The notes: generated by a model not told the origin, from the letters alone. A DNA stretch of 64,000 nt from an uncultured Candidatus Saccharibacteria bacterium (GCA_947169915.1 CAMVRN010000005.1:1-64000); one strand, 5' to 3'; shown: positions 39,323 to 53,157, numbered from the stretch's first letter. Numbers and translations are program-made.

Positions 39323-42300
39323 TTAGAACCTTGGAGGAAGCTTCTTCTGATAAACTACTGTAGGTAGGCCAGTCACGCGAGAATTGTCGTACCCCCAAAG
39401 AATAATCGAAGGATTATAATTGACGACTTCTGCAGCTTCCTCGGTGGTATCCTCGGCTGGGTCCGCTCCGTAGGTGCGTCTCATCAATATCTTTCCGCCA
39501 ACCATGGCGCCATTTACGGTGAGTTGTTCGGTACAGGTCGTGTTCGAGAGAGGAATATTATCGCCGTCTGAGGTTGTACAGGTGTTAATTGTGCCACCAG
39601 TATTCCCTTCGCCTTTTGCGACAAGAAGTGCGTCAATTCGAGTGACTGTATCTTCGATATTGATATCTTTACCAATGATTATGATTTGCGGAACATCTTC
39701 TGAGCTTGTCCGCTCTTCAGAAGAGTTTATTATGATGTCTCTGGTGATGTTTATTGTCTCGTCACTTATAATGATATGTGGGCCTGAGTCTATTTCGTTT
39801 GAAGGGATTGCGGACAGCGAATCTGCTGTTGGCGGAACGTATTCAAGAAGTTTAGCGATGAAATCTGAGCGGTTGTATACTGAGGCGTTTCCTAATGCGT
39901 CTTCTTTTGTTTCATCATAACACCGGTTATTTGAAATTGTGATTGGACTAAGGTCGCAGAGTGAGCTTGTTCCGAGCGCGCCACTGATAGTGTATGCACC
40001 GGAAGTAAGATTTTTGAGATTGCCGTTGGCGATGGCTACGAAATCTGCCCATGAGCCATAGAGTCTATTATCTGTTTTGATGCGGGAAGTTTTGATTCCG
40101 CCTGCGGAAAGAACAGAGCCACCCCAAACTTGGAAGCTTGGCTGTTTCGAGACGTTTCTACAGGAGGATGAGGATACATAGTAGCCTGAATTCGATGCAG
40201 ATGTGTAGTTTCTAATCGCGATTGCAACGCAGAATTTATTGCCTACTGCAATCTTCGGAACGGTGATTGTGCCAGTAGAGTAAGAGAGCGAGTAATCAGT
40301 TTTATCGTAAACGTTTCTAAATGGTACGTTTGATGTTGGGTCTGGGTCTCCAGCGTGATTGCCTTGTTTTGGCTTGTCTGGATGGCCTGTATTCGAGATG
40401 GATTCTGGGTTCATAGTAGAAGCGATTTCGCAGGTGCCTGGTTTTGCTACTGAATTAAAGTATGCGCATGGATTACCCGTTATTTCTTCGCCAGTGACAG
40501 ACGAGGCGTCTTCTCCGGTCGTGTCAGTATCTAGTATATAGGTAATTACATATACATATCGTTCATTTCCGGTATGGTCTGGGTCGGTTATGTATTCATG
40601 GAAAGTGTTTTCTTGTTCGACAGAAATGTTGTAATCCATGCGGAAGGTGTTTCCTTCGAATGCAATTGGGTCAGCTGGGGTTGATGGTTCTACGTTCGTT
40701 ATTTCGTAATTGTATGGGCGAGTGATTGTATAGACAGTTGGGTCTACGGAATCTCGGGCAACAGGCGTTGTGGTTTGAGGCGTCAAATCAAGTTTTTCTG
40801 TGCGGTCGTAGAACTGTGTGCCGGATTTGCTGGACCAGGCGCCGGTATACACTTCTTGACGGTAGATGTTTTTATAACGGACACGCCATGCGGCTCGGGA
40901 ATTATATGTGCTATGGCTTACATTTTTTGTTATACCTGCAGGAAGGACATATTCGTCACGAGATGATGCATTGAATGTCGTGAAGGTGCGTCCATCGGAC
41001 GGAGTTGAGCTCCATGAGTCTCCATCATTCTTGTTTCTTGCATTTAGAGTGACTGGATAACCGTTAATTTGGAAGTCCGTTTGATAGAACGGATAGAGTA
41101 GTTTTGAGCTATCTCTAGTACCTGGAAGACGCTCATTGCCCCACATTCTTGCGGTTACATCATAAGCAGGGTCGTTATAAATCGACCTTTGATAGAATAC
41201 GACTCCGGAGTCAGTTTCATCAAAGTTGTTTGCGCGGAATTCATTATTGTCATAGCGTCGTAACGAATGGTCAAAGAACATGGTTGATGTTAACTTGATT
41301 GTCTCATAATTGTTCCCGCTGAGGCGATTTGCTCCAGTAATCGTCATATTGCCAGTTTCGCCAGAAACATCGATATAATGGTTCTTATATCTAGTATCGA
41401 CAATGTCGTTTTCCCAACGAGGGTTTTTGAGTGTGATACAGACTGGAGTAGTGTAATAGGTTGTATTGTAACTCCAGATGCGGTCAACGTAGCTATCGTA
41501 ATTTGAGGCATTTGTGCTCGTCGCGTAACTGGTTGCGCTGTTATATTGGAGGCGGTGGCAGGTATAAATATATTTACCTTTGTTAGATGCATCCAATGTC
41601 CATCTTGGATTGGTGTGAAATGTGACTGTCTGGCCTGCTGAAAGATACGCTTCGCCTGACGTCGTTAGACTTGTGTCCGAATCTTCTGATGAACGATAAG
41701 TTATGTAGTAATCTGCGGTACAGCCTGCGTCAACACAATATTGGAGACGCCAGTTGACCTTTGCATTTTTGACGTAATAGGTGTCTGCCATATCTGAGCT
41801 TTTATCTTCGTCAGTACGGCTCAAAGTATGCGTGAAGGATGCTGTATAATTTGAGTCGGCTGGGTAATCGTCAACAAAGGTACCGTCTGAATCTGTTCCG
41901 GTTCCTGTAATGCGGCGCGTATTATCAATGGTTCCTTCGAGATTATTGTTTGTGCGATTGAGCTTTTCGTGTGGGTTAAGAACGCCAGTTGTCGAACCGG
42001 TGAAATGGGCGATATATTCTTGGTGGGAGTTCATAATTGAGTAACACTCACGAGTTTTTCCATTATAGACGCGTTTGTCGAGAGTATTATCGATATAAAT
42101 AACTGGGGTGTCGTATGCAATGTAGAAACATTGATATACTACAGAATCGATAGGAACTATGATTTCTTTTGCGCTTGATGTAGTTGATTCTGTCTCGTTA
42201 TAAGACAATGCTCTAGTTTCGCTTGTAGGGGTGGTTGGATAACCTGTATCGCTGTATGCGTAACGCGAAGAAACCGCCCACTTCGGAATGTTGTTTGTGC

Positions 42301-44731
42301 GCTTTATTGTGTATGTCGGCGTCAAATAGTAGCGACTACGCAAGCCGTCTCCGGTTTTGCGGTTCGAAATCGATTCGTGGTCACCGAGTTTTGCACCGTT
42401 TCTGACTGCGATGCTAGCCGAGAATGTTGCGTCCCATTTGTTTGGGTTATAAACTGAAACACATTTTTCAGCCTTACCTGTAAATTCACGCGTATCGAAC
42501 GGAGAGGTGAGAATACTTCCGTCTATATAACCCACGCGTTGGTCGAATGCAAGGGCGAAGCACTTAGTCCTCGTCTGGCCATTCGGAACCGAAATACTAA
42601 CCGTTTGAGGGATGGTTGTTTTTTCATTTGCGCTGAGGGCTGATGTGCTGTACTTGGCCGAGGTAGGGTAACTTACCGTACTGCCATGCGAAAAGTCGTA
42701 ACGAGAGGCTGCAGTAGTAGGTACTGAGTTGTTATGGGTGATTTGGTGATAAGCCGTGAGCGTATATGAAGTGTCGTATCCATTGCCGCGGAATCCGGAG
42801 GATGCGCTGCCTGCAAGGTTTGAAGATCCAACATCTATGGACGCCGTGAACGTAGCTATCATTGGATTGTATAAATTCGCGCATCTATTGATTTTGTTTA
42901 ATGATACTCTATCACCTAGTCGATTAGTGTTGGCGTAATAATCTACCGCACTCTCATAGGTCATATAGAAACAATAAGTGCCTTTCGTGCCAAGTTTTTG
43001 AGTGACGCTTCTTTCATTGTTGGCTGTTAATTCTTTCGTTTCGCCGTATTTAATATTATCAGTAAGGGTGCCTGCTGACTCGGGCTGGCTTGATGTACTA
43101 GTGGTGTATTTTGATGCGGCTAGGGTTGGAGTGTTATTGCTTCTTTTGATGGTATACTTCGTCTTTATGGTAAAGTCTTCGTTTATGCCGTTTCCTAACA
43201 TGTTTACTTTATTAGTCGCTACTACGTGATTGTTGGTATTCCATGGAATTTCCACATAACCGTAGAATGATGCACGGGCTGGTTGATAGACAGTAAAGCA
43301 GGTCGGCGTGGTCTGCGCCCAGGCGGTATTTGTCTGCGTGGTGCCCTGAAGCGAAATAGCACTGACGTAATTTAGGCGTTGGCAGAGTGTTTGCGATGAG
43401 CCGTTGCTTGGAGTAATGCTTACGGTGTGGGTGTTCGTGACGGTCTTGTTGTTTGCGCTTGTTCCGAGGGTTGTTGAAGAAATGGTGGCGCAGTTACTCC
43501 ATGGGCAATAGTCGTAACAGCCCCATGAACTGCCATTCCAAGTACAGTTTTGAGTTATGCCGTAAGCTGAAGGGTTAGAAATGTGGCTTTCAGTATCGGT
43601 ACGAGTGAGTGATTTTGTTACGGTCACTTCATAAGGACCGCCGTTGTACGTTCCTAAATATGAAGTTCCGCCAAGTGAAGTTACGTTTGTCGGCGGGAGT
43701 GCATAGGTAAGCGAGCCGCTAAACGAGCCATAATAGGTTGGTTCTTCGCGGTAAACCGTGACACAAGCAGCAGTTGTATATGCGTAAGATAAGCTTTTTG
43801 AATAGCCTGCAAGACCAACCACTTTAGGGTAGCGAAGACGTGAACAGATTGTTTCTTCGGAATTAGACGCAATGGTTTTTGTTATTTTGTTTGAAGTATG
43901 GCTATTGCTGTCAGGAGTACATGTGCCGTTTTTGCTTTCTGCAATACATGTCAGAAGTTGTCCGCTAGTGATGCCATCATAAGACCACCCATCACTTCTG
44001 CTTGCACTGTGGCTAAAAGTGACACTGATTTTACCGTCAGCCGCAGTTACCTTATACTTATTTTTACTTGAATCCCATGCGATACCGGTGGAATCACTTT
44101 TCCAAGAGCTTGCGGAGATGTTTGACACTTTATAGATATAGATAATCATTGGGAAATCATGGCATGAACTTGAACAGCTTGATGCGTTTAGGCATGATTT
44201 GTAGGTAAATCTGTATTTCTGTAGCCCACCAACATTTGTCCATGAAATATTGCTAGGATTAATTGTGATTGTTCCGTATCCAGAGGCAGCGCTAAATACG
44301 CCTTTACTGCCCGACGTATAGCCTTCCATGTTACTAGACATTGTGATGCCCGATGCGTCCGTACAAACGTATGCATTGGCCGTATCAACATAAGTTTTGC
44401 TGGAGATTGTCGTTCGCTTGAGGGACATGCTGAATGGAGTTGGGCTGCTTTGCTCTGGAATGTAGAACGAATCAATAAAAATCATGCCGTATGTGCCGCT
44501 ACTTCCAGTCGAGGTATCGCAACGCTCTTGGAAGGTTTCTTGGTTAACGCTTACTATGTTTGCGCCATGCACGTTTATTGCGCTATTCATACAGTCATTG
44601 GCGGTCCAAGCGGATGCGTTTTTTGCGAACACTTGGAGCGAGAGGAATAAGAATAGTCCAAGCGAGAAAAATACAAAAAAACCGCCTTTTCTGAGTGTAT
44701 AAAAATGTATCTTTTGAACCTCCAAGTTCAT
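39323..44731 (-). CDS. Giant secreted Cys-pair repeat protein, 1802 aa (paralogue of 20812-24660)
   Basis: A basic start and a hydrophobic run (GGFFVFFSLGLFLFLSL) form the signal peptide, with VFAKNASA as a likely cleavage area. At least six beta-rich modules follow, each with a line like YTIKRSNN.P..A.S.Y, a first cysteine (TICSRLRY, TLCQRLNY, TYCFYMTY, TKCFALAF, YQCFYIAY, YTCHRLQY) and a second in CxxxYxP or CxxLKNP. The C-terminal about 330 residues (FQVWGGSV, GSWADFVAIAN, INIEDTVTRIDALL, TYGADPAEDT, ending KKLPPRF) are clearly related to the end of the 1282-aa protein. There is no LPXTG or membrane anchor. TATAAT is 8 nt before the ATG. Likely a major surface or extracellular structure; function unknown. 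Confidence 0.82.
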   Translation of the reverse strand: MNLEVQKIHFYTLRKGGFFVFFSLGLFLFLSLQVFAKNASAWTANDCMNSAINVHGANIVSVNQETFQERCDTSTGSSGTYGMIFIDSFYIPEQSSPTPFSMSLKRTTISSKTYVDTANAYVCTDASGITMSSNMEGYTSGSKGVFSAASGYGTITINPSNISWTNVGGLQKYRFTYKSCLNASSCSSSCHDFPMIIYIYKVSNISASSWKSDSTGIAWDSSKNKYKVTAADGKISVTFSHSASRSDGWSYDGITSGQLLTCIAESKNGTCTPDSNSHTSNKITKTIASNSEETICSRLRYPKVVGLAGYSKSLSYAYTTAACVTVYREEPTYYGSFSGSLTYALPPTNVTSLGGTSYLGTYNGGPYEVTVTKSLTRTDTESHISNPSAYGITQNCTWNGSSWGCYDYCPWSNCATISSTTLGTSANNKTVTNTHTVSITPSNGSSQTLCQRLNYVSAISLQGTTQTNTAWAQTTPTCFTVYQPARASFYGYVEIPWNTNNHVVATNKVNMLGNGINEDFTIKTKYTIKRSNNTPTLAASKYTTSTSSQPESAGTLTDNIKYGETKELTANNERSVTQKLGTKGTYCFYMTYESAVDYYANTNRLGDRVSLNKINRCANLYNPMIATFTASIDVGSSNLAGSASSGFRGNGYDTSYTLTAYHQITHNNSVPTTAASRYDFSHGSTVSYPTSAKYSTSALSANEKTTIPQTVSISVPNGQTRTKCFALAFDQRVGYIDGSILTSPFDTREFTGKAEKCVSVYNPNKWDATFSASIAVRNGAKLGDHESISNRKTGDGLRSRYYLTPTYTIKRTNNIPKWAVSSRYAYSDTGYPTTPTSETRALSYNETESTTSSAKEIIVPIDSVVYQCFYIAYDTPVIYIDNTLDKRVYNGKTRECYSIMNSHQEYIAHFTGSTTGVLNPHEKLNRTNNNLEGTIDNTRRITGTGTDSDGTFVDDYPADSNYTASFTHTLSRTDEDKSSDMADTYYVKNAKVNWRLQYCVDAGCTADYYITYRSSEDSDTSLTTSGEAYLSAGQTVTFHTNPRWTLDASNKGKYIYTCHRLQYNSATSYATSTNASNYDSYVDRIWSYNTTYYTTPVCITLKNPRWENDIVDTRYKNHYIDVSGETGNMTITGANRLSGNNYETIKLTSTMFFDHSLRRYDNNEFRANNFDETDSGVVFYQRSIYNDPAYDVTARMWGNERLPGTRDSSKLLYPFYQTDFQINGYPVTLNARNKNDGDSWSSTPSDGRTFTTFNASSRDEYVLPAGITKNVSHSTYNSRAAWRVRYKNIYRQEVYTGAWSSKSGTQFYDRTEKLDLTPQTTTPVARDSVDPTVYTITRPYNYEITNVEPSTPADPIAFEGNTFRMDYNISVEQENTFHEYITDPDHTGNERYVYVITYILDTDTTGEDASSVTGEEITGNPCAYFNSVAKPGTCEIASTMNPESISNTGHPDKPKQGNHAGDPDPTSNVPFRNVYDKTDYSLSYSTGTITVPKIAVGNKFCVAIAIRNYTSASNSGYYVSSSSCRNVSKQPSFQVWGGSVLSAGGIKTSRIKTDNRLYGSWADFVAIANGNLKNLTSGAYTISGALGTSSLCDLSPITISNNRCYDETKEDALGNASVYNRSDFIAKLLEYVPPTADSLSAIPSNEIDSGPHIIISDETINITRDIIINSSEERTSSEDVPQIIIIGKDINIEDTVTRIDALLVAKGEGNTGGTINTCTTSDGDNIPLSNTTCTEQLTVNGAMVGGKILMRRTYGADPAEDTTEEAAEVVNYNPSIILWGYDNSRVTGLPTVVYQKKLPPRF

Positions 44732-44770
44732 ATAAGACTATTATAGCAAAAGCGGAATAAAAATGAAGAT

Positions 44771-45037
44771 TTATTTATAATAATTTTTGTTGATTTGCGA
44801 ATTGTTGTTTGCGGTGCAAATGTCTAATTCGGGCTTTTCGTCAAAATTGACGGTAGGCACAAAGGGATAGGTTTTGATAAGTTCGGAGTCTTCTTCGGAA
44901 TAGTATGAGCTTGCGGATGCAGTACGGGAGATAACAAGTCCAGTCAAGTGATAAGAGGCAAATCCTACAAGCATTCCCATCAGAAAAGTTCCGAATGCTT
45001 TAACGATTACCTCCGGTGTAATTTTTCTTCTCCTCAT
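44771..45037 (-). CDS. Small secreted or membrane-anchored protein, 88 aa
   Basis: Basic start MRRRKITPEVIVK, one hydrophobic segment (AFGTFLMGMLVGFASYHLTGLVI), then a short acidic outside part (SYYSEEDSELIKTYPF) with one Cys. It is encoded 39 bases upstream of the 1802-aa surface gene, in the same position as the TPR-like membrane genes upstream of its paralogue, so a helper role for the giant protein is possible. No family recognised. Confidence 0.65.
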   Translation of the reverse strand: MRRRKITPEVIVKAFGTFLMGMLVGFASYHLTGLVISRTASASSYYSEEDSELIKTYPFVPTVNFDEKPELDICTANNNSQINKNYYK

Positions 45038-45075: not shown

Positions 45076-46101
45076 CTAAACGTGCCTTTTTTTCTTGCGA
45101 GCGGTTTCGATAAGTCTCGTTAGTTGATATTTTGGTTTATTAATAACGTAGTCGTGTGCTGGGGTATATTTTAGTTCGGAACAACCGAATGAACGCTTGA
45201 ATTCGCTAACTCCGTAAAAACGATGCGAAGTTTCATCTATGCCGACTATACCCCACAGGTTGTAGCGTTTAATTCCACGCTTCCTTGCTTCTTCCATTGC
45301 TTTCATGTGAAGCAGTGGTGCGGCAGAATATTTCGTGCCAAGTTCGCTTGAAACGCCATAGTGGTAGCTCGCTTCGTTGCCGTAAAAAATCATAAAATTC
45401 ATTGCGAGTATTTCTTTATCTTTTCTTGCTACGTACATTAAAACTTCGTCATTTTTTGCGAATGTATCAAATTGCTTTGTTAGGAAGCTTCTCGTGAACG
45501 GAACATATCCTTGGCGTTTGGCGTGTTTTGTTTCTAGGTCGCAGAAATCCTTCATTATTTTCGAATCGTTCGTTATTTCGATTTTTATGTCGTTCTTCTC
45601 GGCTTTGCGAAGTTTGCGTCTAAAGCCCTGAGAGGCGTTCTTCAATATCTCCTCCTCCGATTGATTTAAGTCAAGAATCCCAGCATATTCGACGGAGAGA
45701 TACATTGGGGCTTTTTTGAAACCGTTTTCTTTCATGAGCGTGAGGGATTTTTCAGACAGCTCAAGTTGTGGGCGAAGACGAACAAAGACGCATTTCAATC
45801 TTTTGCCTTCTGATTTAATATCTTCAAAAATCGCTTTTACAAGAGTTTTGTTTTTCCAGTCTAGAATTGGGCCGCCTGCAATCGCTAGATGACGTCCACG
45901 CTTTGCGGTTTCGACAACTCCCGCATATGCGCCGATAATTTTTCCTTCAGAATCTAGGGCAATACGGCGAGTGACTGGGTTGCCGCGTGAAGCGTGAAAT
46001 TCATAGAAATCCCAGCTTTGAAGAAAGTTTGATTCGGGGTGAGATGTAATAAATTCATCCCATTTTTGTTTGTCTTCAGCTGTTTCGATAACTATTTTCA
46101 T
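45076..46101 (-). CDS. FemAB-like peptidoglycan bridge aminoacyltransferase (copy 2)
   Basis: 341 residues. FemABX/MurMN family: two GNAT-like folds that transfer amino acids from aminoacyl-tRNA to the stem-peptide lysine of lipid II. Family lines visible are SNFLQSWDFYEF, GPILDWKN, VFVRLRPQLE, FRRKLRKAEKND, RQGYVPFTRSFL, ASYHYGVSSE and RYNLWGI. It shares the same plan with the next gene, so the pair arose by duplication, as MurM and MurN or FemA and FemB did. Its start overlaps the stop of that gene by one base (TAATG). Confidence 0.88.
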   Translation of the reverse strand: MKIVIETAEDKQKWDEFITSHPESNFLQSWDFYEFHASRGNPVTRRIALDSEGKIIGAYAGVVETAKRGRHLAIAGGPILDWKNKTLVKAIFEDIKSEGKRLKCVFVRLRPQLELSEKSLTLMKENGFKKAPMYLSVEYAGILDLNQSEEEILKNASQGFRRKLRKAEKNDIKIEITNDSKIMKDFCDLETKHAKRQGYVPFTRSFLTKQFDTFAKNDEVLMYVARKDKEILAMNFMIFYGNEASYHYGVSSELGTKYSAAPLLHMKAMEEARKRGIKRYNLWGIVGIDETSHRFYGVSEFKRSFGCSELKYTPAHDYVINKPKYQLTRLIETARKKKRHV

Positions 46102-47102
46102 TATAGATTCCTCTTTTTCTTGCGTGCATTTTCTACAATTTCATCAAGTTTGTAGCGAAGCTTATTAATAACGATGTCGTGGGCCGGAATGAACTCGATT
46201 ACTCTTCCACCAAAGCCCGTCTTAAAGGTGGTAACGCCCGAATAGCGGTGATGCTCGACATTAGGTGGTGCAATTCCCCACAGGTTGAATCGTTCGATAC
46301 CTTCTTTTTTTAGGTCCTTTATAGCTCGCCAAAGCAAAGCATAGGCTCCTGGTAGCTTGCGGTTTAAATCCGTGGATGCAGCCTCAAAGTATTCTGCCTC
46401 GTTACCGTATATTAATATTAAGCCATATGCAACGGCTTCACCAGAATCTGTGGTGACTTTATATAGTTTTATATTATTTGGACTAAATGCGCTTCGTTCA
46501 GCGAGAAGCTCTTTTTTGCTTGGCGGAACGAAACCTTGACGTTTTGCTGTGGTAACTTGAACACTATGGAATTCATTGAACGAATCTTCGTTAGAGTCTT
46601 CGTCGACGACGAGACCTAGCTTCTCCGAGCGCCTGACTTCGTAACGGGTTTGTCTTCGCATATCCATTAAAAGGTCGTCTTCGCTTTTTGACAAATCTAA
46701 AATAACGGTATTTTGGGCATGAAGATGCATGGGTGCGAGGCGTAAATCAATGCCTTTTATAACCTTTATATTCTCAAGGCGCTTTTGATTCTCTGGCGTA
46801 TTTTCAAGCTGAGGCCTGAAACGGACAAAAACACATTTTTCCTCATTTGCGACCTTAATAATTTCATCAAAAACTTCTTTTACGAGTTCTTTGTCGTCCC
46901 AATCGATTAGTGGTCCACCTGGGATTTCTAAGTAGCGGCCACGTTTTGCATCTTTAATAATGCCGAATACTAGTCCCTTTTCATGGAAAGTGCGGACAAC
47001 CAACTTATGCCCGATTAGTCGATTTGCTTCAGCCCAAAGTGGGCTTTGAAGAAAGTTTGATTCAGGATAGGTTTCGAGAATTTTTTTCCAAGTATCTTCC
47101 AT
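46101..47102 (-). CDS. FemAB-like peptidoglycan bridge aminoacyltransferase (copy 1)
   Basis: 333 residues, same family as its downstream neighbour (SNFLQSPLWAEANRL, GPLIDWDD, VFVRFRPQLEN, TRYEVRRSEKLG, RQGFVPPSKKELL, AEYFEAASTDLN, RFNLWGIAPP). Two different FemAB proteins in series suggest a two-residue cross-bridge or two different donors. It starts 1 base after the stop of the DegT-like gene. Amino acid specificity cannot be read from the sequence. Confidence 0.88.
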   Translation of the reverse strand: MEDTWKKILETYPESNFLQSPLWAEANRLIGHKLVVRTFHEKGLVFGIIKDAKRGRYLEIPGGPLIDWDDKELVKEVFDEIIKVANEEKCVFVRFRPQLENTPENQKRLENIKVIKGIDLRLAPMHLHAQNTVILDLSKSEDDLLMDMRRQTRYEVRRSEKLGLVVDEDSNEDSFNEFHSVQVTTAKRQGFVPPSKKELLAERSAFSPNNIKLYKVTTDSGEAVAYGLILIYGNEAEYFEAASTDLNRKLPGAYALLWRAIKDLKKEGIERFNLWGIAPPNVEHHRYSGVTTFKTGFGGRVIEFIPAHDIVINKLRYKLDEIVENARKKKRNL

Positions 47103-47103
47103 A

Positions 47104-48291
47104 TTAGACCTTCATGAGCTGTTTTTTTATTATTTCTCTTGCTTCTTTTACTTCTTTTATTCTGCGTTTACTCTTATACCAGGTAGGGAGATTTACGACA
47201 TGTTCGGAAAAGATTTTCGCATTAATGCATTTCGCTTCGGGAAAATGTGCTTTTTTATAGTATCTGGATGGAGCGACCGGAACCTCGTACCATAGCTCTT
47301 CGAGGTAATAGCCATGGGAATGGAGCTCGGACAAGCATTTTTTACGGTCATCGACTAAATAGTATTCACGAAGTGGTTTGTTCTTTAGGTTCTTAAGTTG
47401 TTTTAACGCGAGCCTTGATTGCCACCATGTTATGGTCGTATCTAATTGGAGCTTTGTGTCGGCAGAACGCTCAATCCAGCGTAGCTTTAGGAGCAGTCCA
47501 AGCCAGTACTTTTCTAAATGAAGATGGGACAAGCCTCTTGCTATAACGGCGAAAACTGGGTACCAACTTGCTCGCGGCACATCTCCATTCGGTTTTCTCC
47601 TAACGAGTTTAGTTTTGTCGAATGAACTCGGGAAGGTTATTTCCTTGTCGCGAAGTATAACGGCACCGCCAGTGATTGTATCAATTGCCTTCCCTTTACC
47701 GAACGACAAACACGTTGCTTCGCCAACTGTACCGATTTCTCGGCCATCTTGATATTTGCGACCGGCACAATGCGCCAAATCTTCAATTAATAGGAGGTTG
47801 TGCCCCTTTTTCACTTTTTCAAATTTGCTGATATCAACTGGTAGACCGAACGAGTTTTGAAGAATAAATACTTTGGCCTTTTTATCTTTTTCTAAGATAG
47901 TTTCAAGAGTTTCCGCCGAATAATCTGGGCGGATTATATTTGCTCCAAGTATGTCACCCTTTTTACCGTTTACGTCCAGCGGATTTTCAAGGTCGGCAAA
48001 GACCGGTTCGAGCCCAGCTTTCTTGACCGCTTCTACTACCGCATAGCAGGTAAAGCCATTTATGACGACGTGGTCGCCTTTTTTAATCTTGCCTGATTCA
48101 ATAAACGATTTAAGCGCAAGACAAATAGCGGAGCGTCCGGAATAGATGAGCGATGTATGCTCGAGGTCTGAGCCATATCTTTCGGCGAGAGCGGATTCTA
48201 GTGCATTATAATCCTTTTTGCCGCCAAGAATAAAGGAGTGTCTCCAAATGTCTCTTGCTGAGTAGTTGCTTGCTAGTCCAAGAAAAATCAT
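47104..48291 (-). CDS. DegT/DnrJ/EryC1-like aminotransferase
   Basis: 395 residues from the ATG at 48291, whose TGA-overlap with the hydrolase (ATGA) fixes the start; the track start at 48450 would lie inside the hydrolase gene. PLP fold type I features: SGRSAICLALKSFI (cofactor phosphate), GDHVVINGFTCYAVVEAVKKAG, LLIEDLAHCAG (Asp for pyridine N) and the probable PLP lysine in CLSFGKGKAIDTITGG. Relatives aminate nucleotide sugars. In an operon with a Mur-ligase-like protein and two FemAB proteins it may instead make an unusual amino acid or amino sugar for the envelope; that is inference. The C-terminal third is Arg/Lys rich. Confidence 0.72.
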   Translation of the reverse strand: MIFLGLASNYSARDIWRHSFILGGKKDYNALESALAERYGSDLEHTSLIYSGRSAICLALKSFIESGKIKKGDHVVINGFTCYAVVEAVKKAGLEPVFADLENPLDVNGKKGDILGANIIRPDYSAETLETILEKDKKAKVFILQNSFGLPVDISKFEKVKKGHNLLLIEDLAHCAGRKYQDGREIGTVGEATCLSFGKGKAIDTITGGAVILRDKEITFPSSFDKTKLVRRKPNGDVPRASWYPVFAVIARGLSHLHLEKYWLGLLLKLRWIERSADTKLQLDTTITWWQSRLALKQLKNLKNKPLREYYLVDDRKKCLSELHSHGYYLEELWYEVPVAPSRYYKKAHFPEAKCINAKIFSEHVVNLPTWYKSKRRIKEVKEAREIIKKQLMKV

Positions 48292-49061
48292 TTTTTGAGC
48301 TCCTTCATAATGGCTTTTGCAAGTCCGTCGGGGTCGGAAATATATGGCGCATGGTTCCAGTTTGGATATATAGATATAGTCGAATCGACAAGTTTCCTCT
48401 TCAAGATGTGCGCTTGGCGTGGAGGCGTGATGTTGTCTTCTTCTCCCCATATTATTGCAGTTGGAGTGGTAACTTTAGTTAGAACGAGTTTTTTATCGCT
48501 TTCGAGCATATTCGACAAAGTCTTCTTCATGTTCTCTGGAGCACGTTCATAGTCCATGCTACCCGTAAGTTTATGGAAAACTTTAGAGACGAGGGGGATT
48601 TTCTTAAGTGGTTTACCCAATTTTGAAACAGTTTTTAGAATGTCGCGTTTCTTGGATGGTTCGTAAACGCCGGCGGCGTCAAGGAGGATAAGCTTCGATA
48701 GTTTTTCTGGCTTTTCCGAGCATAGATTAAGTAAAATACGACCGCCGTTGCTGTGCCCGAGCGCGATGGCGCCGTTCGGAATGTTCTTGTCTGCCCATAA
48801 TACATAATCATCAATAGTCCATACCTTTTTTGATGGAGAAGTAAGGCCTGGGACATTCAGCATGATAACCTTTATTCCGTTCCTTTCAAGGATTTCAATA
48901 GTTTTAGTCCAAGGCTCCACAGTATATGTCCAGCCATGGATAATATAGAGAGTTTCTTGGAACGGGGTGGATTTCGTACCTTCTATTCCGTTCCAGACGG
49001 TGGTAGGTTTTTCGGGTTTTTCTGACTCTATTCTTCTAACTTCATGAGACATCTGTTTCAT
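48288..49061 (-). CDS. Alpha/beta hydrolase
   Basis: 257 residues. Serine hydrolase fold: oxyanion HGW near the start (YIIHGWTYTVEPW), nucleophile elbow GHSNGG, acid in GEEDNITP and His in WNHAPYISDP, so the triad is complete. The cap region between the elbow and the acid is rich in Lys. It could be an esterase, thioesterase or proline iminopeptidase-like enzyme. It is coupled by one base to the Mur-ligase-like gene and by 4 bases to the DegT-like gene, so it acts in the same envelope pathway. Confidence 0.85.
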   Translation of the reverse strand: MKQMSHEVRRIESEKPEKPTTVWNGIEGTKSTPFQETLYIIHGWTYTVEPWTKTIEILERNGIKVIMLNVPGLTSPSKKVWTIDDYVLWADKNIPNGAIALGHSNGGRILLNLCSEKPEKLSKLILLDAAGVYEPSKKRDILKTVSKLGKPLKKIPLVSKVFHKLTGSMDYERAPENMKKTLSNMLESDKKLVLTKVTTPTAIIWGEEDNITPPRQAHILKRKLVDSTISIYPNWNHAPYISDPDGLAKAIMKELKK

Positions 49062-50332
49062 TAAACCAGCCCTCGGTTCTTACGTCGTTTTATTGCTGAC
49101 GGTTCACGGCGGCAGAGTTTAAGAGCGTCTTCTGGTTTTTCAAGAAGTTTTTCGATAATCCATTCTAGGTACTGAGACCCTTTGAAAATTAGAGTCTCGG
49201 TGCCATTAGTGTTCTTTTCTATGTAAGCAAGGGCTTTCTTTGGGTCGAGTGTAGTTTTCGGGCTAAATCCAAGTTCTTTAAGGCGAGGGGCGGTGTATTT
49301 TTTAGTTCTACGACCAATTAAAATAACTTCTTCGGGGTTCGCTTTCGCAATGAGGTCAGCTAGTTTTTTATGCTCTTCTTCCTCGATTGAGCCTTCATCA
49401 ACAATGTCGCCGATGATTAGCCATTTGTGGCTGGCGCGAAGCGTACGAGTCATTTCTAGGATGCTTTGCATTGAGATGATATGTGCGTTATATGAGCTAT
49501 CGATGATCTTCACACCATTTTTTCCGTAGAAGAATGAGCTACGTCCTGGCGGTAAAGGCATTTCTGAAAAATCTGTTTTTAGTGGAATCTTTAGATACTT
49601 CATCAAATCCTTCAGCATGAGGAGTTGAATAGAAAGGTCACGTGGTTGCGGGGAGTTAAAACGAAAGGTCGTTGAAGTGGTCCCGAACTCACTGCGAGTT
49701 GGATAGACGCTATATTTGACGATTTCTGATTTATAGAATTTGCTTACCCTAGCGGTGATATCTTTTGTTGCGCGGTTCATAAGTTCATTGTCGCCGTCGA
49801 TGAACACGAGACATTTTGTGTTTTCGGGAATCTTGGCAAATTCATCCATAATAGCTATGTCGAGACTCTCGAATTTTCCTTCGCGAACCTCTTGCTCGAA
49901 TTGAATTGCATGGGAGAGACCGAGAGAAATCCAGAGCGTAATTTCAGGTTTAAGCCATTCGGCTAGAAAACGCGCTTCGTGCGGGCGTTCGGCGTCGATT
50001 TCGACGACATAAAACGGCTCTTTGTGTTTATAATAGAGAGCACGAATTGGAGTGGCGATAAATAGCCAGAACCAGCGGAGCTTGGTCCCGCGGACGCCCT
50101 TAAGACCTAGAATATCAAAAGAAACACCAAAGGCGGAATTTGCATCATGGGAATAGTGGGCATCTTTGCCCAGTTCGAATTCAACCATGTGGAGCATGGT
50201 AGTTTTACCCGCAGAACCGGTGATAGATATAATTCGGGGATTCCAGCGTCTTAAGGCGAAATTAGCGAAGAAGCGGAAATATCCCGCTACCAGAAAATAA
50301 AAGCGCTTCTTGAGACGCATTACTTTTGTCAT
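49061..50332 (-). CDS. MurF-like ligase without the substrate-binding N-terminal domain
   Basis: 423 residues. The central ATPase and C-terminal domains of Mur ligases are recognisable: ISITGSAGKTTMLH (P-loop at about 36-49), VVEIDAERPHEARFL, GLSHAIQFE, PPGRSSFF...IIDSSYNAHIISMQS, and LIIGDIVDEGS. MurF usually starts with a domain of about 80 residues that binds UDP-MurNAc-tripeptide. Here only about 35 residues precede the P-loop, basic and hydrophobic (RFYFLVAGYFRFFANFALRR), probably membrane-touching. It may ligate an amino acid to something other than the usual UDP precursor. It leads the five-gene operon; TATAAT is exactly 6 nt before the ATG. Confidence 0.82.
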   Translation of the reverse strand: MTKVMRLKKRFYFLVAGYFRFFANFALRRWNPRIISITGSAGKTTMLHMVEFELGKDAHYSHDANSAFGVSFDILGLKGVRGTKLRWFWLFIATPIRALYYKHKEPFYVVEIDAERPHEARFLAEWLKPEITLWISLGLSHAIQFEQEVREGKFESLDIAIMDEFAKIPENTKCLVFIDGDNELMNRATKDITARVSKFYKSEIVKYSVYPTRSEFGTTSTTFRFNSPQPRDLSIQLLMLKDLMKYLKIPLKTDFSEMPLPPGRSSFFYGKNGVKIIDSSYNAHIISMQSILEMTRTLRASHKWLIIGDIVDEGSIEEEEHKKLADLIAKANPEEVILIGRRTKKYTAPRLKELGFSPKTTLDPKKALAYIEKNTNGTETLIFKGSQYLEWIIEKLLEKPEDALKLCRREPSAIKRRKNRGLV

Positions 50333-50338
50333 GAGACT

Positions 50339-50344
50339 ATTATA
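50339..50344 (-). promoter_or_regulatory. -10 box of the Mur-ligase/FemAB operon
   Basis: TATAAT on the minus strand, then AGTCTC, then ATG at 50332: leaderless. The box begins directly after the U-tract of the rpsJ terminator. Confidence 0.7.
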
Positions 50345-50380
50345 AGAAAATAAGACCTATATTTCAAGGTCTTATTTTTT
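50345..50380 (-). terminator. Terminator of rpsJ
   Basis: AAAATAAGACCT (50347-50358) pairs with AGGTCTTATTTT (50367-50378), a 12-bp stem with T-rich flanks on both strands. Confidence 0.88.
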
Positions 50381-51913: not shown

Positions 51914-51933
51914 ATTATACATCATGTTATAAT
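51914..51933. promoter_or_regulatory. Back-to-back -10 boxes of metK (minus) and glycosyltransferase (plus)
   Basis: Minus-strand TATAAT at 51919-51914 points to metK; plus-strand TATAAT at 51928-51933 lies 6 nt before the GT4 start at 51940. The two boxes are 8 bp apart, so RNA polymerase cannot sit on both at once. Confidence 0.65.
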
Positions 51934-51939
51934 AAAAAA

Positions 51940-53157
51940 ATGAAAATTGCGATTTTTACTGACGTCTACACAAACGGCGTTGGTGGAATTCCCGTCTCGA
52001 TTGCTACCGAAAAACATGGGCTAGAGAAGCAAGGCCACTTGGTCTATGTTTTTGTGCCTGCGCTTGATAGGTTCAATGAGAAGAACGTCTTTAGGGTCCC
52101 CTCCGTCAACACGTTCAAGGTGAACAATGTCCCTTTTCCTGCTCCTGCGGCCAAAATAATGGAATTTATCCTTGAAAATTATCCAGAGATTAAGGGTTTT
52201 GACATTATACATTCTCATTACGAAGCGGGTTGTTCGATTGCTGGGCTCAAACTTGGAAAAATGTTAGGCATTCCGACTGTTCAAACTATGCATGGGCGCG
52301 AAGATTCTGGGATAGAGGCTAATTTTCCTCCAGGTATTCGAGATTTTGTCGCTGAAGTCCTTAACGAGGCTCATAGAAGTTCGATTTCTCATGATATTAA
52401 AGTAAAAAAATTTGACGGAGAATATGCCGATACCAGACCTCGTGCGAAAATGTGGGAGCTAATGATTGCACAAGCGAATTTTGCAGATGCGGTTGTTTGT
52501 CCAAGCATGCATTTTATGAAAAAGCTCAAAGAATATGGGATGACTACCCCTGGTTTCGTGGTGCCGAATGGGATTGACGATGGCTTAATGAAGCGCGGAG
52601 CGAAATTGCGACAGTTCGACCCAAAAAATGAATGTTTAAAGATAATTTTCCCTTCACGAGTCGCTAAAGAAAAACGATTAATGGTGCTTCTTCGTGCGCT
52701 TAGGATGTTGTCGAAAAAAGATAAATACGAGCTTGATGTTTATGGCGATGGAAATGAAAGCTTAAAAGCTGAGTCGTATGTGTTTAAGTATGACTTGAAC
52801 GTAAATTTTCACGGAAAAACACCTCGAGAAGATATCATAAAGGCCTTGGAAAAATCCCATATTTCCGCAACGGTTTCTTATGACTTTGATACGCAAGGCT
52901 ACACTGTCCTTGAGGCTGTAGCAAGCGGAGCAGCAATCCTTCTTTCCGACCCCGACCTTAGGGAAAGTATTCCAAAGAATGGTTCGATTGTTGCGAGCGA
53001 CCCAACAGCGAAAGCCTTAAAGAATGCACTTGAAAGGATTTTCAGAGAGCCGACACTTATAGAAGAAATGTCCAAAGCCAACATCGAGGGTCGCGACATG
53101 GTATCCGAGAAACACCAGGTAGAAACTTTGCTTAGCATTTACAAAAACCTTATTTAA
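51940..53157 (+). CDS. GT4-family glycosyltransferase
   Basis: 405 residues, GT-B fold. N-terminal IAIFTDVYTNGVGGIPVSI with the acceptor-side loop, VQTMHGRED in the middle, FVVPNGIDDG, then the donor-side IIFPSRVAKEKRL, VYGDGNES and the E-x7-E-like FDTQGYTVLEAVASG near 330-345. Relatives include diacylglycerol glucosyltransferases and other envelope glycosyltransferases. It is followed by a CDP-alcohol phosphatidyltransferase gene, so glycolipid synthesis is likely but not proven. The mRNA appears leaderless. Confidence 0.85.
   Translation: MKIAIFTDVYTNGVGGIPVSIATEKHGLEKQGHLVYVFVPALDRFNEKNVFRVPSVNTFKVNNVPFPAPAAKIMEFILENYPEIKGFDIIHSHYEAGCSIAGLKLGKMLGIPTVQTMHGREDSGIEANFPPGIRDFVAEVLNEAHRSSISHDIKVKKFDGEYADTRPRAKMWELMIAQANFADAVVCPSMHFMKKLKEYGMTTPGFVVPNGIDDGLMKRGAKLRQFDPKNECLKIIFPSRVAKEKRLMVLLRALRMLSKKDKYELDVYGDGNESLKAESYVFKYDLNVNFHGKTPREDIIKALEKSHISATVSYDFDTQGYTVLEAVASGAAILLSDPDLRESIPKNGSIVASDPTAKALKNALERIFREPTLIEEMSKANIEGRDMVSEKHQVETLLSIYKNLI

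Follow-up and report, generated by a model that had tools for sequence, protein, structure and literature searches.

A five-gene cassette carried by part of the Saccharibacteria coincides with the loss of the D-Ala-D-Ala ligase (Ddl) and occupies the genomic site that holds MurF and Ddl in other families of the order. This is the main point that the initial annotation of the locus missed. The cassette encodes a Mur-type ligase (MUR), an alpha/beta hydrolase (ABH), a DegT-type aminotransferase (DEGT) and two FemAB-type proteins (FEM1 and FEM2). We regard it as an even call whether the cassette is a lineage-specific replacement of the MurF-Ddl step that finishes the stem peptide, with the synthesis of interpeptide bridges built in. 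Such an apparent replacement in these tiny parasitic bacteria suggests that their wall peptide ends differently, or that its assembly takes place at the membrane and not in the cytoplasm.

Genetic organisation of the cassette

The five open reading frames are all on the - strand of the window, i.e., the whole stretch of 64,000 nucleotides that was analysed. The features of the locus are as follows.

49061..50332, - strand: MUR, MurF-clade ATP-dependent ligase without a UDP-binding domain, 423 aa
48288..49061, - strand: ABH, alpha/beta hydrolase (profile match, candidate triad)
47104..48291, - strand: DEGT, DegT-family PLP aminotransferase, 395 aa, start corrected
46101..47102, - strand: FEM1, FemXAB-family aminoacyltransferase
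45076..46101, - strand: FEM2, FemXAB-family aminoacyltransferase
50243..50326, - strand: predicted N-terminal amphipathic helix of MUR, residues 3-30 (alignment, structure model, hydrophobic moment)
50198..50218, - strand: P-loop of MUR, GSAGKTT, residues 39-45 (G39, S40, G42, K43 and T44 invariant)
50339..50367, - strand: predicted sigma-70-type promoter, TTGAAA-17-TATAAT, 11/12 consensus matches
50345..50380, strand not applicable: inverted repeat of 14 bp in the rpsJ-MUR interval, a possible terminator of rpsJ (weak, seen by consensus scan alone, with the T-run scored on the + strand)

The stated coordinates were confirmed for all five reading frames, and profile matches confirmed the families given in the initial annotation (Mur-ligase-like, hydrolase, DegT-like and two FemAB-like genes). 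The overlaps of 1 to 4 bases that it described at the joins are found at three of the four junctions (MUR/ABH -1 nt, ABH/DEGT -4 nt, FEM1/FEM2 -1 nt), and the fourth, DEGT/FEM1, is a gap of 1 nt. DEGT most likely starts at 48291, a position favoured by the ATGA overlap, a ribosome site (GGAG) and the conserved start of the predicted protein (MIFLG); the start called mechanically, 48450, lies inside ABH and was rejected in its favour.

The genes are transcribed in the order MUR, ABH, DEGT, FEM1, FEM2, with rpsJ upstream of MUR. The -10 box of the predicted promoter is ~6 nt ahead of the MUR start codon, and a promoter placed directly ahead of this ATG would give the operon its own start and a near-leaderless mRNA. 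Across the window, TATAAT is found 4-8 nt before an ATG at 12 sites (including 44729-44745, 50330-50344 and 51928-51942) against 3 expected, a count that no shuffle reaches; this enrichment suggests that leaderless transcripts may be frequent. Just downstream of the cassette are the genes of an 88-aa membrane-type protein (window 44771-45037, - strand) and of a protein of 1802 aa whose N-terminus is hydrophobic and which has no Pfam match (window 39323-44731, - strand).

Cassette and Ddl seldom co-occur and occupy a shared genomic site

To quantify the association, we used 149 genomes of the order, calling a MUR cassette-type at E<1e-60 and a Ddl strong at E<=1e-15. Cassette-type MUR is present in 15 of the 149 genomes; a strong Ddl is found in 1 of these 15 versus 117 of the 134 others (Fisher p ~2e-10, which overstates independence, the surveyed genomes being related). 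The exception, G049, has a complete MurF-hydrolase-Ddl locus and a cassette-type MUR that lost its partners. Ddl is absent in 23 of the 24 members of the genus of the analysed genome, with a single weak match (E 5e-14). Both states occur within one genus (g24), where G129 and G160 have a cassette-type MUR and no strong Ddl, and G156 and G162 carry Ddl together with a different MurF. The shared site is upstream of leuS: it contains MUR-ABH-DEGT-FEM in families f9 and f37, and ABH-MurF-Ddl or MurF-Ddl in other families.

Ddl is also missing in ~17 genomes that lack the cassette, e.g., G029, which has an ordinary short MurF next to leuS. Loss of Ddl is thus tolerated on its own, which could mean that the dipeptide is salvaged. 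We found no description of a cassette replacing Ddl in the open literature searched, and on MurF, Ddl or muropeptides in Saccharibacteria that literature held nothing beyond general statements. It has been speculated that CPR bacteria use D-Ala-D-Lac or D-Ala-D-Ser precursors (PMC8651080).

Conservation and variants of the cassette

The initial annotation suggested that the five genes may work together, and their co-occurrence supports a conserved functional unit: in 19 of 19 congeneric loci all five are present in the same order, mostly with overlapping or near-zero junctions. Since MUR identity across these loci goes down to ~59%, such an arrangement is not due to chance. In a first survey, all 15 congeners at least 90% complete carried MUR, the analysed genome included. 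Where such records are named, they are metagenome-assembled genomes of Candidatus Saccharibacteria, several of them from ruminant gut. One locus (L056) has an extra copy of DEGT.

Other families of Saccharibacteria have shorter or rearranged cassettes. The order is MUR-ABH-DEGT-FEM in f9 and f37. In f13 the contig ends after MUR-ABH-DEGT, which is thus a minimum, and in g19 it ends after murE-MUR-ABH-DEGT-FEM1; murE is directly upstream of MUR in L219. DEGT is missing in L104, L217, L218 and L223 (the last, from f20, being MUR-ABH-FEM), so that we rejected it as an indispensable part. In another f20 locus (L222), MUR-ABH is followed by a single open reading frame that joins DegT and FemAB domains, with the frame open over 740 codons; this fusion is seen in one assembly, where a sequencing error is possible in principle. 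The fusion and the adjacent murE link the cassette genes to peptidoglycan. Two neighbouring genes were observed in passing: a Mur-ligase-like protein of 315 aa whose P-loop is not normal or is missing, encoded just downstream of the cassette in lineages without DEGT (L217:9070-10026, L218:8647-9594, L104:10905-11855), and a heliorhodopsin, encoded near the cassette in f13 (L057:4158-4952).

MUR is a MurF-type ligase with changes at conserved sites

MUR matches Mur_ligase_C above its cut-off (E 6e-8) and Mur_ligase_M weakly. Its best subfamily is MurF, at 100.6 bits, which is under the curated TIGR01143 cut-off of 288.6; that cut-off is passed in 0 of 40 genomes, and MUR scores 80-100 bits. In the Mur ligase tree, the MurF-type clade that includes MUR has a support of 99/98. 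The MURs of the cassettes fall into a single clade (100/100), which has a long stem and is sister to short MurFs (95/83). The top ten fold matches of the MUR model are MurF structures.

The ATP and C-terminal domains read as intact, and MUR keeps the P-loop, E111, H141, R264, N282 and H321. Four changes, G113D, G118H, N179D and D279S, are specific to the cassette and affect sites conserved in canonical MurF and in both other Saccharibacterial MurF types; D279S falls in the MurF motif DDxYNANP.

No second MurF was found in the genome itself, which is 96% complete, and MUR is its only MurF-type ligase. The initial annotation had set its reading against a search for another murF, the usual length of such ligases and the linkage of the neighbours; that MUR is the only MurF-like ligase here and that ligases of this length are common in the order both count against it, but the neighbours are strongly linked in relatives, and the cassette itself stands. 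The other Mur-type genes of the genome encode MurC, MurD, MurE (G000 C11, L001:826-2220), FolC and a degenerate protein of 261 aa (G000 C7, L003:1345-2130). The latter corresponds to the MurE middle domain only, has a degenerate P-loop (GTSGKAT) and is kept in much of the genus; its gene is also near murE in other congeners.

The rest of the peptidoglycan pathway and a possible outside source of D-Ala-D-Ala

MurC, MurD and MurE are retained in the analysed genome, MraY is found in 38 of 40 relatives and transpeptidase PBPs in all 40, with the SxxK, SxN and KTG motifs intact in the genome itself. TM7x has been described with genes leading from UDP-GlcNAc to peptidoglycan (PMC10768705). A switch to crosslinking by L,D-transpeptidases, which would use tetrapeptides only, is not supported: these enzymes are rare (YkuD in 5 of the 24 genus members) and PBPs are present in all members. 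Since the PBPs and their motifs are kept and L,D-transpeptidases are rare, PBP crosslinking presumably continues and then requires a donor terminus from a source other than Ddl. Of 40 Saccharibacteria genomes, 38 lack alanine racemase (N-domain), though most families have Ddl; most Saccharibacteria must therefore obtain D-Ala from outside.

These results bear on the main rival explanation, which is that MUR is the plain MurF of the lineage and adds D-Ala-D-Ala scavenged from the host, that Ddl was lost, and that the cassette merely groups MurF with FemAB genes for bridges. Scavenging is plausible because genomes without either Ddl or the cassette exist. D-Ala itself appears to be scavenged across the order, the PBP motifs are intact, and Saccharibacteria are host-dependent epibionts (PMC10768705). 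Yet such an explanation accounts neither for the near-exclusive pairing of the cassette with Ddl loss, nor for the cassette-specific changes at sites conserved in MurF, nor for the presence of DEGT and ABH. We hold it to be possible, though short of probable.

Loss of the UDP-binding domain is general to MurF of the order and to MurE of the phylum

The initial annotation correctly described a ligase with ATPase and C-terminal domains and a short N-terminal stretch instead of a substrate-binding domain. In MUR, 38 residues precede the P-loop, and they are predicted to fold into a single helix (H3-30) that leads straight into the ATPase domain (mean pLDDT 91). The helix carries a conserved basic-aromatic pattern (RxKKRFYF..A.YFRFFA..L.RW), and, being predicted as amphipathic, it likely contacts the membrane or a partner.

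The absent domain had also been taken as a mark of the cassette. We rejected this signature: MurC and MurD of the order keep the UDP-binding domain, but it is missing from every MurF-type ligase of the order that was examined, and from MurE (P-loop at residue 43-63). The N-termini of these MurFs vary, some being short and hydrophobic and others having ~140 residues that on inspection seem to be membrane-embedded; the genes of the latter type (L061, L063, L064, L067, L196) share an operon with those of a hydrolase and Ddl. In a sample of Patescibacteria, 55 of 59 genomes have a MurE match, nearly all of which start at position 57-93 of the 472 of the profile, i.e., past the UDP-binding domain (G172, starting at 3, is an exception). 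We found no description of this phylum-wide loss in the open literature searched.

A ligase with the same truncation, MurT of S. aureus, acts on lipid II and has an N-terminus of ~35 residues (PMC6113224). Its authors argued that MurT has no need of a UDP-binding domain, which would collide with the membrane when the enzyme is on lipid II (PMC6113224). By analogy, lipid-linked precursors may be the substrates of MurE and MurF in Patescibacteria. If both enzymes lost the domain in the whole phylum, the order of assembly may differ there. The initial annotation had proposed a lipid-linked peptide as a possible product; a lipid-linked substrate is the best structural reading, and the interpretation given there is partly supported overall.

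The similarity raises the alternative that MUR is a MurT-like accessory ligase that modifies, e.g., amidates, complete lipid II. Besides the shared truncation and the similar length of the N-terminus, MurT/GatD structures are among the fold matches of the MUR model. Against this, the C-terminal domain of MUR is a normal Mur_ligase_C, the tree groups MUR with MurF, and none of the cassettes examined showed a GatD-type partner. We consider this alternative very unlikely, and rejected the identification of MUR as MurT/GatD given the different C-terminal domain and the missing GatD.

The partner genes and a possible role outside peptidoglycan

ABH matches an alpha/beta hydrolase profile (E 3e-16) and has a candidate triad, S104-D209-H237, that is near-invariant in 31 sequences. 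DEGT matches DegT_DnrJ_EryC1 (E 5e-26, 92 bits versus a cut-off of 19.8), with a Pfam match that covers the first half of the profile only, the C-terminal half being divergent. Its PLP lysine, K201, and D171 are invariant in 10 sequences, and the listed fold matches of its model are of the DegT type. FEM1 and FEM2 match FemAB (E 1e-37 and 1e-38; 130 and 133 bits versus a cut-off of 24), have FemX and FemA as their closest solved relatives, and are 36% identical; from their sequences, they look like a duplication of the single FEM found in f9.

These families would also fit an envelope molecule other than peptidoglycan. In that case DEGT would form an amino sugar that FEM1 and FEM2 acylate with amino acids, while MUR would append a peptide and ABH would do the trimming. 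The nearest solved relatives of DEGT are indeed sugar aminotransferases, the FEM proteins also match, weakly, an exopolysaccharide-linked FemAB model, and a polysaccharide deacetylase comes after the cassette in f9. We nevertheless find such a product unlikely: MUR is the sole MurF-type ligase of a genome in which MurC, MurD, MurE, MraY and PBPs are all retained, the cassette is at the MurF-Ddl site, with murE as a neighbour in L219, and no nucleotide-sugar genes were seen to travel consistently with it. The link of the ligase, the DegT enzyme and the hydrolase to the synthesis of envelope and peptidoglycan, already drawn in the initial annotation, is supported.

A model for stem peptide completion

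If the cassette replaces the MurF-Ddl step, MUR would act on the membrane and use ATP to extend the stem peptide of a muramyl precursor linked to lipid (lipid I/II), in the manner of the truncated MurT on lipid II. The unit that it adds is probably not D-Ala-D-Ala made by the cell, given the absence of Ddl and alanine racemase and the changes at four residues conserved in MurF. Judging from their families, FEM1 and FEM2 would add bridge amino acids from aminoacyl-tRNA. The DEGT-FEM fusion leads us to guess that DEGT supplies or modifies the amine that FEM uses, and ABH might edit or release an acyl or peptide intermediate. A hydrolase also adjoins MurF in families with Ddl, and ABH may thus be part of the MurF step and not of the swap.

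Counted against the replacement are the genomes that lack both Ddl and the cassette, the presence of both in G049, the dispensability of DEGT and the fact that DegT relatives are mostly nucleotide-sugar enzymes; with these included, the arguments for and against it are about in balance. A more specific version, to which we give only tentative credence, is that the stem is completed on the lipid carrier and not on UDP-MurNAc, and that DEGT helps to build a terminus different from D-Ala-D-Ala, which PBPs still accept as a donor. If the cassette replaces Ddl, part of the Saccharibacteria may have walls without the vancomycin target.

Comparison with known systems

MUR shares with MurF its clade, ATP site, C-terminal domain and fold. 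It differs in the lack of UDP-binding domain 1, in the predicted N-terminal amphipathic helix, in D279S and the three other changes, in a score far under the cut-off of the MurF model, and in working in a cell without Ddl. It resembles MurT of the MurT/GatD lipid II amidotransferase in that ~35-38 residues replace the UDP-binding domain, but it has no GatD neighbour, has an ordinary Mur_ligase_C and is closer to MurF; a membrane-bound substrate is known for MurT and only proposed for MUR. FEM1 and FEM2 are like the bridge transferases FemX, FemA and FemB, matching FemAB above the curated cut-off as well as the solved FemX and FemA, but unlike these they share an operon with genes for an aminotransferase, a hydrolase and a MurF-type ligase, and in one genome there is a fusion to DEGT. 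The MurF-Ddl locus of other Saccharibacteria, unlike the cassette, contains Ddl and no DEGT or FEM genes, but it occupies the same site upstream of leuS, and in several families a hydrolase adjoins its MurF as well.
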